From an uncultured Hyphomicrobiales bacterium (GTDB lineage Bacteria; Pseudomonadota; Alphaproteobacteria; Rhizobiales; Xanthobacteraceae), in NCBI GenBank assembly GCA_903892675.1, contig CAITJJ010000242.1, positions 1-50,744 on the forward strand: a stretch of DNA of 50,744 bases, given 5' to 3'. Both the position numbers and the translations under genes were made by a program. The notes beneath the pieces were generated by a model. It did not search any database and was not told where the DNA came from. It was given only the letters and a program-made list of their open reading frames with translations. Of this stretch, positions 27,680-38,340 are shown piece after piece; within the stretch, counting starts at the first letter, position 1; the number at the start of each line of letters is the position of its first letter.

Positions 27680-28768
27680 TCAGTTGCGGCTGCGCATGCG
27701 AATCTGGAAGCTGTCGAAGCCGAGTTCGGCCACTTGCAGCCACGCATAGGCGTCGTTGCGGTAGGGCACCAGGCTTTCGTACAGCTTCTTGAAGTGCGGA
27801 TTGGTCGCCGCAAGACCGTCATAGATTTCGGTCGCTGCTTTGTAGCATGCTTCCAGAACCGGTTGCGGGAACCCGCGCAACAAAGCGCCATTCGCGACCA
27901 GCCGCTTGAGCGCCGGTGGATTGACGTAGTCGTATTTCGACAAGGTCCAGACCCATGCATCGTTCGATGCGGTGATGATGGCCGCCTGATAGTGTTTGGG
28001 CAGTTCGTTCCACTTCGCCATGTTCATGATGTTGTGGGCCTGGCCGCAGCCTTCCCACCAGCCCGGATAGTAGTAGTATTTAGCGACCTTGACGAAGCCG
28101 AGCTTTTCGTCGTCGTAAGGACCAACCCATTCGGCGGCGTCGATGGTGCCCTTTTCGAGCGCGGGATAGATATCCGGCGCGGCGAGTTGTTGCGGCACGG
28201 TGCCGAGCTTGGCCAAAATCGTGCCGGCGAAACCGCCGACGCGGAATTTCAATCCCTTGAGATCGTCGACGGTGTTGATTTCCTTGCGGAACCAGCCGCC
28301 CATCTGCGCGCCGGTATTGGCCGCAGCAAAGCCGATGCAGTTGTATTCCTTGAGCAGGCCGTTGAGCAATTCCTCACCGCCGCCATGGCGTATCCAGGAT
28401 ATCATTTGGCGGGTGTTGAGCCCGAACGGCAATGCGGTCCCGAAGGTGAAGGCCGGGTTCTTGCCGAAGTAATAGTACAGCGCCGTGTTGCCCATCTCGA
28501 CGGTGCCGCTCTGCACGGCGTCGAGTACCTGCAGACCGGGGACAATTTCGCCGGCGGCAAAAGTCTGAATCTGAAACTTGTTGTCGGTGATCTCGGCGAC
28601 GCGCTTGGCGAAATACTCGCAGCCGCCATACAAGGTATCGAGCGACTTCGGCCAACTGGCTGTCAGCCGCCATTTAATATCCGGGTTCGATTGCGCAATC
28701 GCAGGCGCTGCGACGGTCGACGCCGCGAGCCCCACGCCCGCGGCTTGCAAAAATTGACGACGCTTCAT
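27680..28768 (-). CDS. Orphan TRAP-type solute-binding protein inside the sox cluster
   Basis: A 362-residue DctP-family protein with a twin-arginine-like leader (MKRRQFLQAAG, cleavage near IAQ at 26). It has the subclass marks ASWPKSLDTLYGG, FAAGEIVPGLQVLDAVQSGTVEMG, the ligand-helix segment GLKFRVGGFAGTILAKLG, and EWVGPYDDEKLGFVKVAKYYYYPGWWEG, as in TakP-like 2-oxo-acid or lactate binders. No DctQ or DctM gene is nearby, and it differs clearly from the dctP at 3494. Its location between soxV and soxW suggests a role tied to sulfur or carbon supply during lithotrophy, but that is inference. It may share the permease encoded at 1491-3403. Confidence 0.87.
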   Translation of the reverse strand: MKRRQFLQAAGVGLAASTVAAPAIAQSNPDIKWRLTASWPKSLDTLYGGCEYFAKRVAEITDNKFQIQTFAAGEIVPGLQVLDAVQSGTVEMGNTALYYYFGKNPAFTFGTALPFGLNTRQMISWIRHGGGEELLNGLLKEYNCIGFAAANTGAQMGGWFRKEINTVDDLKGLKFRVGGFAGTILAKLGTVPQQLAAPDIYPALEKGTIDAAEWVGPYDDEKLGFVKVAKYYYYPGWWEGCGQAHNIMNMAKWNELPKHYQAAIITASNDAWVWTLSKYDYVNPPALKRLVANGALLRGFPQPVLEACYKAATEIYDGLAATNPHFKKLYESLVPYRNDAYAWLQVAELGFDSFQIRMRSRN

Positions 28769-29837: not shown

Positions 29838-30413
29838 ATGAACTTATCACGGCGGCATCTCTTGCTCGGGGCTATGGCGACCGGCGTTCTGGGCGCGCCC
29901 GCTGCGCGAGCCGACGATCCGGTACTGACCGATGACGGGCTCTACAAGCAATCCTGGTTTCTGGAAAGCTTCCTCGATCTGCCGGATGACCTCGAGGACG
30001 CCCGCAACGCCGGGAAACGCTTCGCCGTCATGTGGGAGCTTAAAGGCTGCCCCTATTGCAAGGAAACCCATTTCGTCAATTTCGCCCGGCCGGAAATTGC
30101 CGACTACATCAAGGCCAATTTTGAGGTGCTTCAACTCAACATCATCGGTTCGCGCATCGTGACCGATTTCGATGGAGCAAAGCTGTCGGAAAAAGAAATG
30201 GCGGCGAAATACGGGGTGCGATTCACGCCAACTTTCCAGTTCTTCGCTGAGCGCGCCGCTCCATTGAAAAACGAGCCGCCGCAGAAGCGGGAAGTGGCGC
30301 GCGCGCCGGGCTATTTGCGGCCCGATGATTTCCTCGCAATGTTCCGCTACGTTCGGGAAAAGGCTTATCGGGACAAGAGCTTCCGTGATTATGTCAAAGC
30401 CCTGCCGAGCTGA
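29838..30413 (+). CDS. soxW: SoxW, exported thioredoxin
   Basis: A 191-residue protein with a twin-arginine-like leader (MNLSRRHLLLG, cleavage near ARA at 25) and a thioredoxin fold. The redox motif is C71-P-Y-C74 in ELKGCPYCKETH. The cis-proline region is YGVRFTPTFQFF near 135. PGYLRPDDFLAMFRYVREKAY near 155 is typical of SoxW. It receives electrons from SoxV and reduces disulfides in the periplasm. It is monocistronic or leads the sox operon; a candidate SoxR site lies before soxY rather than strongly before this gene. Confidence 0.88.
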   Translation: MNLSRRHLLLGAMATGVLGAPAARADDPVLTDDGLYKQSWFLESFLDLPDDLEDARNAGKRFAVMWELKGCPYCKETHFVNFARPEIADYIKANFEVLQLNIIGSRIVTDFDGAKLSEKEMAAKYGVRFTPTFQFFAERAAPLKNEPPQKREVARAPGYLRPDDFLAMFRYVREKAYRDKSFRDYVKALPS

Positions 30414-30447: not shown

Positions 30448-30499
30448 CATATTCTTTTTTGTGAATATGATTTGACCTCTTCGCAGCCGTCGTTATGGT
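30448..30499 (+). promoter_or_regulatory. soxY promoter with perfect ATTC-N8-GAAT inverted repeat
   Basis: CATATTC (30448-30454) and GAATATG (30463-30469) are perfect 7-bp arms around 8 bases. Two bases downstream stands a -35-like TTGACC (30472-30477) and, 16 bases on, a -10-like TATGGT (30494-30499). A repressor bound to the repeat would overlap RNA polymerase. As I recall it, ATTC-N8-GAAT is the motif reported for SqrR-type regulators, which fits SoxR here. Confidence 0.6.
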
Positions 30500-30554
30500 C
30501 ATCGGCGAAGGGGCTTCGTGTCGGCCCTGTAACGATCTTTGGGAGGTTCTTTCC

Positions 30555-31010
30555 ATGCGGCATCTGTCTCGTCGCGCCGCCCTGGCGCTCGGCGCCGGAA
30601 GCGCTGCCATCACACTGGTCGGCTGGAACGGCGGCGCGTTCGCCACGCCGCAGGCCGCCGGCGATGACATTGCCAAATTCACCGGTGGAGCGACGCCTGA
30701 AAAGGGCAAGATCTCTATCGAACTGCCGGAGATCGCCGAGAACGGCAATACCGTGCCGCTGTCGTTTTCGGTCGATGCGCCGATGACCGACGCCGATTAT
30801 GTCAGCGATGTACTGGTCGTTGCCGAAGGCAATCCGAATCCGGGCGTGGCGACGTTTCACTTCACGCCGCTTTCGGGCAAGGCAGAAGCCGCGACCCGTA
30901 TCCGTCTGGCCACAACACAAAACATCGTTGTCGTCGCGAAAACCAGCGGTGGCAAATTTTATACGTCGCAGAAACTGGTCAAGGTCACCATCGGCGGTTG
31001 TGGCGGCTGA
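30555..31010 (+). CDS. soxY: SoxY, sulfur-carrier subunit of SoxYZ
   Basis: A 151-residue protein with a twin-arginine leader (MRHLSRRAALALG, cleavage near AFA at 30). The carrier tail IGGCGG at the very C-terminus has C149, to which sulfur intermediates are covalently bound. The central part, IELPEIAENGNTVPLSFSVD, is the typical SoxY core. SoxY exports folded with SoxZ through Tat. GGGAGGTTC precedes the ATG at 30555. soxZ follows 59 bases later. Its promoter carries the candidate SoxR operator. Confidence 0.97.
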   Translation: MRHLSRRAALALGAGSAAITLVGWNGGAFATPQAAGDDIAKFTGGATPEKGKISIELPEIAENGNTVPLSFSVDAPMTDADYVSDVLVVAEGNPNPGVATFHFTPLSGKAEAATRIRLATTQNIVVVAKTSGGKFYTSQKLVKVTIGGCGG

Positions 31011-31069: not shown

Positions 31070-31393
31070 ATGGCCGAAACGCCGAAGATCAGAGTTCCCA
31101 AGACCGCCAAGAAGGGCGAAATCGTCGAAATCAAGACGCTGTTGCCGCACATCATGGAAAGCGGCCAGCGCAAGGATAAAGACGGCAAGACCATTCCGCG
31201 CAAGATCATCAATAAATTCGCGGCCGAGTTCAACGGCAAGCCGGTGTTTTCGACCAATATCGAGCCGGCGATCGCGGCCAACCCCTATATGCAGTTCTTC
31301 GCCAAGGTCGAGGAGAGCGGCACTTTCAAGTTCACCTGGACCGACGACGATGGTTCGGTGACGACGGCGGAAGAAAAAATTGCCGTGGCCTGA
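31070..31393 (+). CDS. soxZ: SoxZ, partner of SoxY
   Basis: A 107-residue protein without a signal peptide, exported as a passenger of SoxY's Tat leader. Typical features are RVPKTAKKGEIVEIKTLLPHIMESGQRKD split over about 8-36, IINKFAAEFNGKPVF (about 46-60) and PYMQFFAKVEESGTFKFTWTDDDG. It forms the heterodimer that presents the SoxY carrier arm to SoxXA, SoxB and SoxCD. CAGGAGACGACC precedes the ATG. A stable stem lies between it and soxXA. Confidence 0.97.
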   Translation: MAETPKIRVPKTAKKGEIVEIKTLLPHIMESGQRKDKDGKTIPRKIINKFAAEFNGKPVFSTNIEPAIAANPYMQFFAKVEESGTFKFTWTDDDGSVTTAEEKIAVA

Positions 31394-31468: not shown

Positions 31469-32728
31469 ATGCGTTCGGACATTCTAGCGACTGGCGTGGC
31501 GGCAATTATCGCCGGTGCATTCGTCGTTGCCGGCGCTTTGGGCGTCTACGCACAAGCCAAGAAGCCGGCGCCGCTTGAACTCGGGCAGGATGCCGCCGCG
31601 CGGCCGTGGAAGCGCTATCCGGGCTGGCCGGCCGCCGACTATTCGAAATACAACACGCTCGGCCAACTGGCGTCCGCGCCGGCGCCGAAAGGGCCGCGCA
31701 AGATCGTCGGCCCCGTGACCGGCGATGCCGCCAACGGCGCCAAGCTGGTGGCCGATCGCACGCGCGGCGGGTCATGCCTGGCTTGTCATGTGATGGGGCC
31801 GGCCGGCAACGCGGACTTGCCGGGTAATGTCGCACCCGATCTATCGGAAATCGGCAATGCCGGCCGCGAGGACGAGTGGCTCTACAATTACGTGTTCGAT
31901 GCGCGCGTCTACAATCCGGACACCGTGATGCCGCCCTGGGGCAGCCACGGCTTTTTCTCGGAAGCCGAAATCAATGACGTCGTCGCCTTCCTCAAGACAT
32001 TGAAGTCGCCGGCGGTGTTCAGGACCGCGCTCGACAATCCCGAGAAGCGTCCGCAGCCGGTCGAAAAACGCGACAATCTCGATCCGCTCGAAAATCCCGG
32101 CATGTGGGCGGTCGATAAAGGGCAAGAGCTCTGGAAGGAAAAGAGCGCCTCGGGCTTCTCCTGCAACACCTGCCACAGCGATCCGGCCGCGTCTTTCAAG
32201 ACCTGGGCGGCGTCGATGCCGAAATGGGAGCCGCGCCTCAACAAGGTGCTGGGCGTCGAGGAGTTCGTCACGCGTCATGCCAAGGCGACGATCGGCGTCG
32301 ACTGGTTGATGGAAACCGACAACAATCGCGCCATGTCGGTCTATCTGCATTTCCTTGCCAACGGCACGCCGATCAAGGTCGATACGGCGAGCGCCGAAGC
32401 CAAGGCAGCGATCGCGCGCGGCATGGAACTGACCAAACGCAAGGTCGGTGCGCTCAACATGGCCTGCACCGATTGCCACGGCATCGCGGTCAACAAGTGG
32501 ATTCGCGGACAGTGGATGGGCGAGCCGAAGGGCCAGTACGATCACTTCCCGACCTGGCGTACCAGCCTGCTGGCGATCTGGGATATCCGGCAACGCTTCC
32601 AGTGGTGCTCGGTCAATATTCGTGGTGACGAATTGCCGCCGGATTCGAAGGAATATGGCGATCTGGAATTGTATCTCGCCTCGCAGAACGAGGGCCTGAA
32701 GATGAGCGTGCCGGGCATTCGCCATTGA
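31469..32728 (+). CDS. soxXA: SoxX-SoxA fusion, triheme cytochrome c
   Basis: A 419-residue single polypeptide. Residues 1-30 are one signal peptide. Residues about 85-180 are SoxX: heme site C103-x-x-C106-H107, GNVAPDLSEIGNAGREDEW and the Met-ligand region DTVMPPWG (M154). A linker of about 45 residues follows. Residues about 215-419 are SoxA: heme sites C232-x-x-C235-H236 and C333-x-x-C336-H337, and the R-x-Q-x-C motif RFQWC with C380, the cysteine that carries persulfide in SoxA. Separate SoxX and SoxA are the usual state. The fused protein would couple thiosulfate oxidatively to SoxY. AGGAGGATTC precedes the ATG. No separate soxX or soxA exists in the window. Confidence 0.92.
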   Translation: MRSDILATGVAAIIAGAFVVAGALGVYAQAKKPAPLELGQDAAARPWKRYPGWPAADYSKYNTLGQLASAPAPKGPRKIVGPVTGDAANGAKLVADRTRGGSCLACHVMGPAGNADLPGNVAPDLSEIGNAGREDEWLYNYVFDARVYNPDTVMPPWGSHGFFSEAEINDVVAFLKTLKSPAVFRTALDNPEKRPQPVEKRDNLDPLENPGMWAVDKGQELWKEKSASGFSCNTCHSDPAASFKTWAASMPKWEPRLNKVLGVEEFVTRHAKATIGVDWLMETDNNRAMSVYLHFLANGTPIKVDTASAEAKAAIARGMELTKRKVGALNMACTDCHGIAVNKWIRGQWMGEPKGQYDHFPTWRTSLLAIWDIRQRFQWCSVNIRGDELPPDSKEYGDLELYLASQNEGLKMSVPGIRH

Positions 32729-32861: not shown

Positions 32862-34550
32862 ATGATCACACGCCGTGAAATGCTTCAGGTCAGCGCCGCG
32901 ACTGCGGCGCTTTCGGTAGGTGCGGGCGATTTCTCGCGCGCATTCGCACAGCAAAGACTGACGCAGGACGATCTCACCCGCTTCGACGCGGTCGGCAATG
33001 TCACGTTGCTGCACGTCACCGATATCCACGGCCAGCTGATGCCGGTCTATTACCGCGAGCCGAGCGTCAATCTCGGCGTCGGCGCCGCCAAGGGATTGCC
33101 GCCGCATCTGACCGGCGCCGATTTCCTCACCAAATTCGGCATCGCTCCGAAGTCGGCCGCGGCCTATGCGATGACCGATCGGGATTTCACTGCGGTTGCC
33201 AAAACCTACGGCAAGATCGGCGGCCTCGACCGGCTGGCGACGGTGGTCAAGCAAGTACGTGCCGAACGCGACGGCAAGGTGCTGTTGCTCGATGGCGGCG
33301 ACACCTGGCAGGGCTCGTTTGGCGCCAATGCGAGCCGCGGCCAGGACATGGTCGATTGCATGGCGCTCTTGAAGCCCGACGCCATGACCGGCCATTGGGA
33401 ATTCACCTATGGCGAAGCCCGGGTTCAGGAGATCATCAAGAGCCTGGAGTTTCCGTTTCTGGCGCTGAACATCCGCGACACGGAATGGAACGAGCCGGTG
33501 TTCGACGCGGTCAAGATGTTCGAGAAGGGCGGCGTCAAGATCGCCGTTCTCGGCCAGGCCTTTCCCTATACGCCGGTCGCCAATCCGCGCTGGATGATGT
33601 CGAAATGGTCGTTCGGCATTCGCGAGGAAGAAGTGCGCGTCCAGGTCGACAAGGCGCGCGGAGCCGGCGCGCAGCTCGTCGTTCTGTTGTCGCATAACGG
33701 CTTCGACGTTGATCGCAAGCTCGCCTCGCGCGTTCAGGGCATTGACGTCATTCTGACCGGCCACACCCATGACGCGCTGCCGGAAGCCGTGACGGTCGGC
33801 AAGACGCTGCTGATTGCCTCGGGCAGCCATGGCAAATTCGTCTCGCGCCTCGATCTCGACGTGCAGGGCGGGGCAGTCAAAGCGTATCGCTACAAGCTGA
33901 TCCCGCTGTTTGCCGACGTCATCAAGCCGGATGCCGCGATGACGGCCGCCGTCACCAAGGCGCGGGCGCCTTACGCCAAGGAATTGTCGCGGGTCGTCGG
34001 TCACGCCGATTCGCTGTTGTACCGGCGCGGCAATTTCAACGGCACCTTCGACGATTTGATCTGCGCGGCGCTGTTGAAAGAACGCGATGCTGAGATTGCT
34101 TTGTCGCCGGGCTTCCGTTGGGGCACCAGCGTATTGCCCGGTGCGCCGATTACGGTCGAGGACATTCACAACGCCACCGCGATCACCTATCCGCAGGTCT
34201 ACCGGCTGCCGATGACCGGTGAGCGTCTCAAGGAAGTGCTGGAGGACGTCGCCGACAATCTGTTCAATCCCGATCCGTATTATCAGCAGGGCGGCGACAT
34301 GGTGCGCTGCGGCGGGCTTGGCTATTCGATCAATGTCGCAAGGCCGATCGGTCAGCGCATTTCCGCCATGACACATCTGAAAACCGGCAAACCGATCGAG
34401 GCGAAGCGCGAATACACGGTCGCCGGCTGGGCCAGCGTCAACGAGGGCACGCAAGGCCCCAATATCTGGGATCTGGTGGAGCGCCAGATCGCGTCGGAAA
34501 AGACCGTGCGGGTAGCGCCGAATTCGTCGGTGAAAATATCCGGGATTTAG
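32862..34550 (+). CDS. soxB: SoxB, thiosulfohydrolase
   Basis: A 562-residue protein of the 5'-nucleotidase-like metallophosphatase family, with a twin-arginine leader (MITRREMLQVSAA, cleavage near AFA). Metal-binding blocks: HVTDIHGQLMP (about 51-61), LLDGGDTWQGS (about 143-153), TGHWEFTYG (about 176-184), LSHNGFDVD, and TGHTHDALPEA. The GHWEF block, in place of GNHEF of nucleotidases, is the SoxB hallmark. It hydrolyses SoxY-S-thiosulfonate to release sulfate, with two Mn ions, in the periplasm. Length matches the family. Confidence 0.97.
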   Translation: MITRREMLQVSAATAALSVGAGDFSRAFAQQRLTQDDLTRFDAVGNVTLLHVTDIHGQLMPVYYREPSVNLGVGAAKGLPPHLTGADFLTKFGIAPKSAAAYAMTDRDFTAVAKTYGKIGGLDRLATVVKQVRAERDGKVLLLDGGDTWQGSFGANASRGQDMVDCMALLKPDAMTGHWEFTYGEARVQEIIKSLEFPFLALNIRDTEWNEPVFDAVKMFEKGGVKIAVLGQAFPYTPVANPRWMMSKWSFGIREEEVRVQVDKARGAGAQLVVLLSHNGFDVDRKLASRVQGIDVILTGHTHDALPEAVTVGKTLLIASGSHGKFVSRLDLDVQGGAVKAYRYKLIPLFADVIKPDAAMTAAVTKARAPYAKELSRVVGHADSLLYRRGNFNGTFDDLICAALLKERDAEIALSPGFRWGTSVLPGAPITVEDIHNATAITYPQVYRLPMTGERLKEVLEDVADNLFNPDPYYQQGGDMVRCGGLGYSINVARPIGQRISAMTHLKTGKPIEAKREYTVAGWASVNEGTQGPNIWDLVERQIASEKTVRVAPNSSVKISGI

Positions 34551-34632: not shown

Positions 34633-34668
34633 AAGACTGGCGGGAGAGAGCGCTGCCGGGAGTTGCCG

Positions 34669-35934
34669 ATGACGGATTCGAACGACGACACGCGGACCTC
34701 GCGTCGCCGGTTTTTGACCGGTGCCGCCGGCCTTGCCGCTGCGGGTGCAGCAGGCGCGGCGCGTGCTGAAAATCCAAAAAATCTGCCGCCGAATGTCGCC
34801 GACTGGAGCAAGCATCTGGGCGATGGCGTCGCCGTGCGGCCTTACGGCCATCCGTCGAAATTCGAGAAGGACGTCATTCGCCGCGACGTACAATGGCTCA
34901 CCGCCAGCCGCGAATCTTCGGTCAGTTTCACGCCGTTGCACGAACTCGACGGCATCATCACGCCGAACGGATTGTGCTTCGAGCGCCATCATTCCGGCAT
35001 CGCCGAGATCGATCCGGACGACTACCGTTTGATCCTTCACGGTCTGGTCGACAGGCCGCTGATTTTCACGCTTGAAAACCTGAAGCGGCTGCCGCGCGTC
35101 AACCGCATTTACTTTCTCGAATGTGCCGCCAATAGCGGCATGGAATGGCGCGGCGCGCAGCTCAACGGCTGCCAGTACACGCACGGTATGATCCACACGG
35201 TGCAATATACCGGCGTGCCTTTGAAGCTGTTGCTCGAGCAGGCCGGCGTGAAAGCCACTGGAAAATGGCTCCTTGTCGAAGGCGGCGATGCTTCCGGGCT
35301 CGATCGCTCGTTGCCGTTGTCAAAGGCGCTCGACGACTGCCTGGTTGCCTACCGGCAGAATGGCGAGATGCTGCGGCCGGAGCAGGGCTATCCGGTGCGT
35401 TTGGTCGTGCCGGGCTGGCAAGGCAATATCTGGATCAAGTGGCTGCGCCGCATCGAAGTCGGCGACCAGCCCTGGTACACGCGCGAGGAGACGGCGAAAT
35501 ACACCGATCTGATGGAGAACGGCAAGGCGCGCAAGTTCACCTTCGTGATGGATGCGAAGTCGGTGATTACTTCGCCTTCGCCGCAAGCGCCGATCAGGCG
35601 CAAAGGCTTCCAGGTTATTTCCGGGCTGGCATGGTCGGGCCGCGGCAAGATCAAGCGCGTCGATGTTTCGCTCGACGGCGGCCGCAACTGGCGCACCGCG
35701 CGTATCGATGGACCTGTGCTCGATAAATGTTGCGTACGTTTCTACGCTGAGGCCGAGTGGAACGGTGAGCCGTGGCTGCTGCAATCGCGTGCCATGGACG
35801 AGACCGGCTATACGCAGCCGAGCAAGGACGCGCTTCGCAAAATTCGCGGGGTCAATTCGATCTATCACAACAACGGCATCCAGACCTGGGCGCTCAAGGC
35901 CAATGGGGAGGTCGAGAATGTCGAGGTCGGTTAG
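34669..35934 (+). CDS. soxC: SoxC, sulfane dehydrogenase molybdenum subunit
   Basis: A 421-residue protein of the sulfite-oxidase molybdopterin family. It has a Tat leader with TSRRRFLTGAAGLAA (about 10-24, cleavage near ARA). The Mo-ligand Cys is C152 in FLECAANSGMEW. HGMIHTVQYTGVPLKLLLEQAGV and LVVPGWQGNIWIKWLRRIEVG are domain marks, and the dimerisation domain has the WSGRGKIKRVDVSLDGGRNW segment. SoxCD removes six electrons from the sulfane sulfur on SoxY. ATG 34669 is preferred over TTG 34663. The soxD start lies inside its 3' end by 17 bases. Confidence 0.95.
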   Translation: MTDSNDDTRTSRRRFLTGAAGLAAAGAAGAARAENPKNLPPNVADWSKHLGDGVAVRPYGHPSKFEKDVIRRDVQWLTASRESSVSFTPLHELDGIITPNGLCFERHHSGIAEIDPDDYRLILHGLVDRPLIFTLENLKRLPRVNRIYFLECAANSGMEWRGAQLNGCQYTHGMIHTVQYTGVPLKLLLEQAGVKATGKWLLVEGGDASGLDRSLPLSKALDDCLVAYRQNGEMLRPEQGYPVRLVVPGWQGNIWIKWLRRIEVGDQPWYTREETAKYTDLMENGKARKFTFVMDAKSVITSPSPQAPIRRKGFQVISGLAWSGRGKIKRVDVSLDGGRNWRTARIDGPVLDKCCVRFYAEAEWNGEPWLLQSRAMDETGYTQPSKDALRKIRGVNSIYHNNGIQTWALKANGEVENVEVG

Positions 35935-36601
35935 TTTGATCGCCGCCGCGCTGCTGCTGGCGTCGCCAGCCTTGGCGCAGGACAAGGTGGCGGTCAGGAA
36001 AAGCCCGCCGCGCAATTACGGCGTCGGACAAGCCGCGACACCGGCGCAAATCGCCGGTTGGGATATAGATGTTCGTCCCGATGGCCAGGGCGCGCCGCCC
36101 GGCAAGGGATCGGTGAAGGACGGTGAGAAGGTCTATCTCGAAAAGTGTGCCGCCTGTCATGGCGAGTTCGGCGAGAGCGCCGGCCGATGGCCGCAACTGG
36201 CGCAGGGTAAAGGGACACTGGCGTCACACGATCCGGTCAAGACGGTCGGTTCGTATTTTCCCTATCTGTCTAGCGTGTTCGACTACATCCGCCGCGCCAT
36301 GCCGTTCGGCGATGCGCAGTCCTTGAGTAACGACGAACTTTATGCGGTCGTCGCCTTCGTGCTTAATCTCAACGACATTGTCGACGACAAATTCGTTCTG
36401 TCGAAAGAGACCTGGTCGCGGGTGAAGATGCCGAACGAGAACGGCTTCTACGACGACGACCGCGAGAAGAGCGAAAAGGCGTTCTGGAACAGCAGGCCCT
36501 GCATGACGGATTGCCGGCCGCCGGTTAAGATCACAGGGCACGCCGCCGTCATCGATGTGACGCCGGAAGACAAAACACCGCGCAAAGGCGGGGTCGAATA
36601 G
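35918..36601 (+). CDS. soxD: SoxD, short single-heme cytochrome c
   Basis: A 227-residue protein with a signal peptide (MSRSVSLIAAALLLASPALA) and one heme site, C77-A-A-C80-H81, then HGEFGESAGRWPQLAQG and a Met-ligand candidate in RRAMPFGDAQ, typical of SoxD. Paracoccus SoxD is about 380 residues with two hemes; here the second cytochrome domain is missing. A C-terminal C-M-T-D-C pair remains but is not a heme motif. It is the electron-accepting partner of SoxC. Its ATG overlaps the soxC end, with GGGGAGG inside soxC as ribosome site, so translation is coupled. Confidence 0.88.
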   Translation: MSRSVSLIAAALLLASPALAQDKVAVRKSPPRNYGVGQAATPAQIAGWDIDVRPDGQGAPPGKGSVKDGEKVYLEKCAACHGEFGESAGRWPQLAQGKGTLASHDPVKTVGSYFPYLSSVFDYIRRAMPFGDAQSLSNDELYAVVAFVLNLNDIVDDKFVLSKETWSRVKMPNENGFYDDDREKSEKAFWNSRPCMTDCRPPVKITGHAAVIDVTPEDKTPRKGGVE

Positions 36602-36705
36602 AATTTCTTTCGCTGCGACAATTTGTCGACGGCGGCGCAATGAATAATAAATTGGGCGGCATGGCGGACCATGCAACGCTCGACGCGACATGGGAGGTTC
36701 GGGCG

Positions 36706-37044
36706 ATGCGTCGGGCGATGCCTGCACGAAAATCGGCAACGCGACTTTTGGCGTTAGGCGGCGGAATGGCTTTGGGCCTGTTGGCGCCCGTGGCACAGAG
36801 CGCCGACGTTGAATACGGCCGCTATTTGTCTTCCGAATGCACGACCTGCCACGGCGCATCCAAAGCCGACAGCACAATTCCGAACATCCACGGTCTGGGT
36901 GAATCGCATATCGCGGAGGTCATCAAGGCCTACCGCACCAAGGCATTGCCTAATCCGGTGATGCAGACCATCGCCGCGCGGCTGGGCGATGATGAGATCG
37001 CTGCGCTTGCTGCCTATTTTGCGACGGCCAAAAGGCCGAAATAA
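36706..37044 (+). CDS. Small c-type cytochrome, likely partner of SoxF
   Basis: A 112-residue cytochrome with a signal peptide (about 1-33) and one heme site, C45-T-T-C48-H49. A Met-ligand candidate lies in NPVMQTIA. It is similar in layout to the monoheme FccA subunit of flavocytochrome c sulfide dehydrogenase; SoxE is a position-based name also used. The ATG at 36706 is preferred because GGGAGGTTC stands before it; earlier in-frame starts add 22 residues. It ends 15 bases before soxF, so the pair is co-translated and probably forms a complex. Confidence 0.85.
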   Translation: MRRAMPARKSATRLLALGGGMALGLLAPVAQSADVEYGRYLSSECTTCHGASKADSTIPNIHGLGESHIAEVIKAYRTKALPNPVMQTIAARLGDDEIAALAAYFATAKRPK

Positions 37045-37059
37045 CCACAAGGGGGCACT

Positions 37060-38340
37060 ATGACTAACATTACACGCCGTCACTTCGGTATCATGGCCGG
37101 AGCGTCGTTATCGACGCTCGGTCTGCCGATTCTTTCCGCGCCAGCTCTGGCGCAAGGCAAGCCGCGCGTCGTTATTATCGGCGGCGGACCGGGCGGGGCA
37201 ACCGCCGCCCGTTACATCGCCAAGGAATCGAACGGCGCGATCGACGTGACCTTGATCGAGCCGCTCAAGACCTTTACCACCTGCTTCTTCTCCAACCTCT
37301 ATGTCGGCGGCTTCCGCGATTACAAATCGCTGACCCACAATTACGACAAGGTCCGGAAGGGTGACGTCAAAGTCGTGCATTCGATGGCCGCGTCGATCGA
37401 CCGCGACAAGAAGCAGGTCGTTCTCGCCGGCGGCGGCAAGGTCCCTTATGACCGCTTGCTGGTCGCCCCCGGCATCGACATCAGGTTCGATTCGGTGCCC
37501 GGCTATTCGGAGAAAGCCGCGGAGGTCATGCCGCATGCCTGGAAGCCCGGCGCGCAGACGCAGCTTCTGGTCAGGAAGCTCAACGCGCTGAAAGACGGCG
37601 ACCAGATCGTCATGATCGCGCCGCCCAATCCCTATCGTTGCCCGCCGGGACCTTATGAGCGCGTGTCGATGTTCGCGCATGTGCTCAAGAAGAAGGGATT
37701 CAAGAAGTCGCGTATCGTCATCCTCGATCCCAAACCCACTTTCTCCAAGCAGGCGGTATTCAGCGAAGGCTGGGAGAAGCATTATCCCGGCATTATCGAG
37801 TGGCAGGATCCCAAGATCCACGGCGGCATCAAGGGCGTCGACGCCAAGACCGGCGAGGTGAAAACGGATTTCACCAATTACAAGCCGGCATTGGTCAATG
37901 TGATCCCGGCACAGCACGCTGGCAAGATCGCGCGCGACGCCGGCCTGACCAACCAGACCGGATATTGCCCGATCGATGCGGCGTCGATGAAGTCGACGGT
38001 CGATCCGAACATCTTCATCGTCGGCGATGCCTCGATCGCCGGCGAGATGCCGAAGTCGGCTTTCTCGGCCAACAGCCAGGCCAAAGTGGCGGCTATGGTC
38101 ATTCGCGCCGAATTGACAAAGTCGCGGGCCTTCCCAGCGCGCTATTCCAATACGTGTTGGAGCCTGATCGCGCCCGACGACGACGTCAAAGTCGGCGCCA
38201 GCTATGAGCCGGTTGACGGCGCCATCAAGGCGTCCAGCACCTTTGTCAGCCAGCGCAACGAAAGCGCCGACCTGCGCAAGCAGAACTACAAGGAATCGGT
38301 CGACTGGTACAAAGGCATCACAGCCGATATTTTCGGATAA
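37060..38340 (+). CDS. soxF: SoxF, flavocytochrome c sulfide dehydrogenase flavoprotein
   Basis: A 426-residue FAD protein of the disulfide-reductase superfamily, with a Tat leader (MTNITRRHFGIMAG, cleavage near ALA at 31). The dinucleotide motif is VVIIGGGPGGATAARY (38-52). C75 in TTCFFSNLYVGG is placed like the cysteine that binds FAD covalently in FccB. C194 (NPYRCPPGPYER) and C303 (TGYCPIDA) are placed like the redox disulfide pair. FIVGDASIAGEMPKSAFSANSQAK is the second FAD-contact block. It would oxidise sulfide with the preceding cytochrome as electron acceptor. A strong terminator follows. Confidence 0.93.
   Translation: MTNITRRHFGIMAGASLSTLGLPILSAPALAQGKPRVVIIGGGPGGATAARYIAKESNGAIDVTLIEPLKTFTTCFFSNLYVGGFRDYKSLTHNYDKVRKGDVKVVHSMAASIDRDKKQVVLAGGGKVPYDRLLVAPGIDIRFDSVPGYSEKAAEVMPHAWKPGAQTQLLVRKLNALKDGDQIVMIAPPNPYRCPPGPYERVSMFAHVLKKKGFKKSRIVILDPKPTFSKQAVFSEGWEKHYPGIIEWQDPKIHGGIKGVDAKTGEVKTDFTNYKPALVNVIPAQHAGKIARDAGLTNQTGYCPIDAASMKSTVDPNIFIVGDASIAGEMPKSAFSANSQAKVAAMVIRAELTKSRAFPARYSNTCWSLIAPDDDVKVGASYEPVDGAIKASSTFVSQRNESADLRKQNYKESVDWYKGITADIFG

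Follow-up and report, generated by a model that had tools for sequence, protein, structure and literature searches.

The soxXA gene at 31469-32728 (+) of the 50,744-nucleotide stretch analysed here (the window) very probably encodes a working single-chain SoxAX, in which heme 1 of the SoxA half is predicted from sequence to have bis-histidine ligation. In agreement with the original prediction, the gene is a single open frame of 419 residues, with an ATG start and its sole stop at the end. A residue scan finds three heme c sites (CxxCH at 103-107, 232-236 and 333-337), Met154 and Cys380 exactly at the positions first reported; the protein contains seven Cys in total, six in the CxxCH motifs and Cys380. 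The one frame has one leader: a single signal peptide is read at residues ~1-29 (31469-31555, +; limits judged by eye), and the top five 15-residue hydropathy windows all lie inside residues 5-26. No second leader is seen, as windows starting at residues 170-210 peak at 1.0 versus 2.5 at the N-terminus. The mass computed from residue 31 onward (cleavage site judged by eye) with three hemes is ~44.8 kDa, rather than the original estimate of about 43 kDa. Between the leader and the SoxX half, in a region of low model confidence, lies an N-terminal motif (31604-31627) with P46, W47, R49, Y50 and W53 invariant in 24 aligned fused proteins.

The SoxX half (residues ~85-180; 31721-32008, +) contains the motif CLACH at 103-107 and Met154, the presumed distal ligand, which is invariant among the 24 aligned fused proteins. 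The SoxX equivalog TIGR04485 covers residues 100-178 with 79.6 bits, above its curated cut-off of 61 (NCBIfam). The SoxA half (residues ~205-418; 32081-32722, +) contains CNTCH at 232-236, CTDCH at 333-337, Arg364 and Arg376, and the SoxA equivalog TIGR04484 covers residues 210-418 with 156.3 bits, above its cut-off of 110 (NCBIfam). Solved structures agree with both assignments: in sequence searches, residues 204-419 align with the SoxA chains 2c1d_A (E 2.5e-21) and 1h31_A (E 2.2e-19), and residues 83-158 with the SoxX chains 1h31_B (E 5.6e-7) and 3oa8_B (E 3.9e-5). When a structure model of the fused protein was submitted to Foldseek, 1h31_A ranked first (E 1.1e-11) and 1h31_B was also matched (E 0.04, from a weak model). 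The mean pLDDT of that model is 62.9, which gives no information on contact between the SoxX and SoxA halves; the model carries no hemes, and its pLDDT falls below 50 at residues 194-207 in the linker and at the heme-2 region, 324-352.

The best matches in both sequence and fold are thus the SoxAX of Rhodovulum sulfidophilum (1h31) and the SoxXA of Paracoccus pantotrophus (2c1d); in the fold search, the SoxA sequences are 26-27% identical. Like the fusion, they combine a CxxCH SoxX with a diheme SoxA and share the catalytic Cys and Arg columns; unlike the fusion, they consist of two polypeptides and have Cys where the window's single chain has His270. The diheme SoxAX 3oa8, presumably from Starkeya, has the catalytic half of SoxA in common with the fusion, but its chains are separate and its SoxA has one heme.

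The window organism groups with Pseudolabrys in the taxonomy. A survey for the same fused domain order finds a full-length frame without stops in 26/43 genus genomes, the window's own included; in an additional one (G950), the fused gene is interrupted by a contig end. No fused gene is seen in the remaining 16 of the 43, several of which are incomplete. Hence the fused form is not universal in the genus, but it is an old form kept by most of the sampled genus genomes. Of the 26 genomes with the full-length frame, 17 have no other SoxA or SoxX match (E <= 0.001), and a completeness of at least 90% is given for 11 of the 17. This recurrence bears on the possibility that soxX and soxA were joined by an assembly or sequencing artefact, with a stop and start hidden between the halves. 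The window genome is admittedly fragmented (404 contigs, 85.54% complete), but the same frame is open in other genus assemblies, including ones of one and four contigs, and also on a plasmid of Indioceanicola, whose record marks it as complete and whose copy is 56% identical to the window protein; the linker, moreover, is conserved. Given this recurrence, assembly error is excluded and we assign the artefact a negligible probability.

In the window, the operon runs thioredoxin-soxY-soxZ-soxXA-soxB-soxC-soxD; genes for a small cytochrome and then an FccB-like flavoprotein come after it, and all lie on the + strand. A thioredoxin-like protein occupies the SoxW position (29838-30413), and soxY, of the GGCGG type (30495-31010), and soxZ (31070-31393) precede the fused gene, while soxB (32862-34550) and soxC (34663-35934) follow it; soxY, soxZ, soxB and soxC are all assigned by NCBIfam. 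The soxD position (35918-36601) holds a cytochrome c, and a small cytochrome c gene (36640-37044) stands ahead of the gene for a flavocytochrome c sulfide dehydrogenase flavoprotein, FccB/SoxF-like (37060-38340). At 227 residues and with one CxxCH, the protein encoded there is shorter than its Paracoccus counterpart (L119 8757-9905), which has 383 residues and an extra cytochrome domain at 269-383, so that the SoxD subunit looks shortened in an operon where another pair is fused. Also inside the sox region is a gene for a DctP-type solute-binding protein (27680-28768, -), which was matched in 4 of 27 neighbourhood loci, two of these from one genome. On another contig of the same genome (C126; L045 2282-4768) there is another sox set, soxX-Y-Z-A with soxX and soxA split; the tail of its SoxY reads by eye as AACIE-like, and the set stands behind (2Fe-2S) and molybdopterin-type genes. 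A similar second sox set is described for Starkeya novella in the available text of PMC3797975.

The neighbourhood is well kept. In the 27 longer loci checked, which represent 26 distinct genomes (L025 and L113 come from one genome), soxY and soxZ adjoin the fused gene in 26/26 genomes. The soxB gene was found in 23/26; in L029, L036 and L041, the DNA stops 56-263 bases past the fused gene. In L039, soxB is present and soxCD are unmatched within the locus. Annotated plasmids of Paracoccus ferrooxidans and Rhodobacter sp. CZR27 have the order thioredoxin-soxX-soxY-soxZ-soxA-soxB-soxC. Compared with this order, the window lacks a soxX before soxY and has it instead as part of the fusion, where soxA would stand. 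Indioceanicola (L001) and G324 (L111) carry the fusion ahead of soxY, in the soxX slot.

Two genomes of the same genus, G070 and G110, have soxX and soxA as separate genes between soxZ and soxB, in operons otherwise similar to that of the window: identity to the window proteins is 76% for SoxY, 84% for SoxZ, 84-85% for SoxB, 88-89% for SoxC and 85-86% for SoxD. The separate SoxA of both genomes has one CxxCH only, and this replacement pair resembles the 3oa8 kind. Most of the split alphaproteobacterial SoxX proteins compared have a loop of ~13 residues after the Met; it is missing from the fused SoxX half and likewise from the separate SoxX of G070 and G110. The exchange suggests that the fused and separate forms are interchangeable, and it gives the strongest indication that the job of SoxAX is done by the fused protein. 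A further genome, G191 (L247 8223-10654), has the same operon backbone with the soxXA slot empty; a distant soxA and soxX lie on the opposite strand, upstream of soxY.

The residues expected of a SoxA active site are in place. The Cys380 column (codon 32606-32608, +), presumed to hold the catalytic residue that ligates the active-site heme, is Cys in 36/36 unique fused proteins and in 100/100 unique split SoxA. Arg376 is found in 36/36 of the fused and 98/100 of the split proteins, and Arg364 in 36/36 and 94/100. By our own alignment, Arg364, Arg376 and Cys380 would correspond to the SoxA residues discussed in the available part of PMC4423706. In the view given there, thiosulfate is conjugated by SoxAX to the Cys that ligates the active-site heme and is then passed on to SoxYZ; direct evidence is said to have been lacking for SoxAX itself, and a copper-based alternative to have been proposed (PMC4423706). 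By analogy, one polypeptide would be exported and three hemes attached to it. Cys380, which would ligate the active-site heme at 333-337, would then take up thiosulfate by oxidative conjugation, with the assistance of Arg364 and Arg376, and the thiosulfonate would be handed to the cysteine of SoxY, which is encoded with SoxZ next to the fusion, while two electrons would exit via the His/Met heme of the covalently joined SoxX half. We infer that the fusion is expressed, folds as one chain, is loaded with its hemes, ligates them as predicted, moves electrons along this path and is active.

The protein might instead be a Sox-like cytochrome with another substrate, parked in the operon and engaged, for example, in TsdA-like tetrathionate formation. 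The fused SoxA halves stand on a long stem (1.72 changes per column), and with such a branch the function could have shifted. Furthermore, TsdBA of Marichromatium purpuratum (5lo9) is also a natural fusion of an electron-accepting cytochrome with an enzyme of the SoxA superfamily, as far as the available text of PMC6879331 and PMC5146829 describes it, and Pfam PF21342 is common to SoxA and TsdA. TsdBA is, however, a thiosulfate dehydrogenase with a di-heme partner, and its fold match to the window protein is weak (E 4.1e-3), far behind the SoxA chains that Foldseek puts first. The SoxA equivalog is matched and the TsdA model of NCBIfam is not, soxYZ adjoin the fused gene in all 26 genomes checked, and 17 genus genomes have no other SoxA or SoxX match. 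A different substrate is therefore very improbable, and we retain the SoxAX assignment.

A second way to question the single chain is to suppose that the gene is fused but that its product is cleaved in the periplasm, which would leave an ordinary SoxA/SoxX dimer as the working enzyme. The linker (residues ~181-204; 32009-32080, +) has the low confidence at 194-207 that a protease-open stretch would have. Nevertheless, seven of its residues (D189, P191, K193, R194, P197, E199 and R201) are invariant among the 24 aligned fused proteins, which is beyond the needs of a cleavage site, and a second leader is not seen. Cleavage into two subunits is in our judgement unlikely, and a protein that works as one chain remains the preferred reading.

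A further departure of the fused protein from known SoxAX enzymes concerns heme 1, at 232-236. When solved SoxA chains are aligned, His270 (codon 32276-32278, +) pairs with a Cys in both, within 'INAC' for 1h31_A and 'VNAC' for 2c1d_A; from the crystal structures, we take this Cys of split SoxA to be the distal ligand of heme 1. When 136 unique of 211 proteins were tallied (identical ones counted once, frames with fewer than 185 aligned residues dropped), all but one of 36 unique fused proteins (35/36) had His in the column, G1076 being the exception with Cys, as against none of 100 unique split SoxA, which have 94 Cys, 4 Ser and 2 Glu. A smaller tally (89 unique of 120, identical ones counted once and two short frames dropped) gives His in 33/33 fused versus 0/56 split proteins. 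The Cys ligand of the triheme SoxAX type is thus not found in the window protein, where His270 occupies the column and no Cys is to spare. Two His lie between residues 242 and 330, and of these His270 alone is kept throughout the 24 fused proteins aligned. With no spare Cys and His270 as the sole invariant His, heme 1 is predicted to be ligated by His236 and His270, i.e. to be a bis-histidine rather than a His/Cys heme, with His270 as its presumed axial ligand.

To our knowledge, the function of heme 1 in triheme SoxAX is unclear. An intact CxxCH at the heme-1 site is missing from 42 of the 100 unique split SoxA, and many SoxA proteins, judged by this motif, appear to manage without heme 1. 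In the related fold of Campylobacter TsdA, the C138H variant has a His that ligates the active-site heme in place of the Cys, and it is inactive according to the available text of PMC6879331; this replacement concerns another heme position than heme 1 of the fused SoxA.

Outside the genus, the fused form is rare. The surveys at family, class and phylum level drew on samples, and their matches were listed best first, so that weaker full-length matches are possible; among the matches listed, the fused form occurs in at least 10/198 genomes of the family sample (the window's own included, 6 of its own genus), at least 2/385 of the class sample (its own and G324) and at least 1/398 of the phylum sample (its own). 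In the named genomes, 20 of 21 loci hold both halves and one ends at a contig edge. In the class of G706, which we infer to be Gammaproteobacteria, SoxX is matched in 129 of 274 genomes, and a frame that joins SoxX with SoxA occurs in at least 3/274; this is a lower bound, as the scan for fusions covered 30 loci and 10 long-frame places. The three proteins are 53% (G1088), 33% (G977) and 30% (G1076) identical to the window protein, and all exceed both curated cut-offs. Around G698 (48 genomes), no fusion was found in the loci scanned; there are 8 places over the cut-off, with frames of 148-274 residues. In G1088, G977 and G1076, window-like sox genes were not found within ~8-9 kb when searched with the window proteins (tblastn to E 1e-4), and hence the operon support is limited to Alphaproteobacteria. 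The fused frame of G1088 (L238 9429-10562) has no evident signal peptide or PWKRY motif, either of its own or in the upstream frames examined.

Phylogenetic trees place most of the fused proteins together. The first SoxA tree groups all 33 unique fused halves in a single clade (100, starred), and in a tree of 44 hand-chosen rows that includes G1088 and G977, both fall within the main fused clade, which has 9 rows with them (support 100/99). The first SoxX tree likewise unites the 33 fused halves in one clade (96, starred) together with one 'split' row, which is a contig-end fragment of a fused gene. A larger SoxX tree, built with a reduced set of 14 fused rows and without the truncated rows L044 and L102, does not unite the 13 main fused rows and requires two changes for them; it has few columns and long branches, and the long branch of G977 meets other long branches. 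In the same tree, the SoxX half of G1076 (L217) groups with 64 split SoxX proteins in a starred set, and G1076 keeps both the post-Met loop and the ligand-column Cys of the split forms. The G1076 fusion is probably independent of the main family, and two origins of the fusion appear likely from these features. Still, the 44-row tree does not reject one common clade for every fused SoxA half (p 0.356), nor do quick trees of SoxA (p 0.787) or SoxX (p 0.511) reject a single clade.

An entry from Beggiatoa leptomitoformis named 'soxAX' (AUI69545.1), with one accession and one primer pair in the available text of PMC11507549, was compared by description only and hints that a one-gene SoxAX is already in print. 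Aside from this hint, no description of a fused SoxXA was found in the titles and opening lines of abstracts of the literature searched, and none in the available portions of the papers cited in this text or of PMC2147049, PMC11582611, PMC13019369 and PMC8833165; PMC2958825 mentions gene fusions, and no tie to sox was found in its available portion. The SoxYZ fusions described in the accessible part of PMC11237559 likewise join two Sox subunits in one chain, but these are the carrier subunits rather than the cytochrome and are often encoded beside carbon-metabolism genes (PMC11237559).

Taken together, our results describe a natural one-chain form of SoxAX with fixed stoichiometry and a different predicted ligand at heme 1. 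The SoxAX dimer is called 'highly recalcitrant' to mechanistic analysis in the available text of PMC4423706, and the one-chain enzyme may be easier to make than the dimer. As fused operons have relatives that carry a SoxA without heme 1, the role of this heme becomes testable. A more far-reaching version, which we offer tentatively and regard as possible but short of probable, is that the fusions represent a distinct and ancient type of single-chain SoxAX, in which heme 1 would be bis-histidine and redox-active as part of a three-heme wire in cis, and which would have moved between classes of Pseudomonadota and, within operons that are otherwise alike, alternated with split one-heme SoxA in the same slot. 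If this were true, nature would already have run the experiment on the purpose of heme 1.
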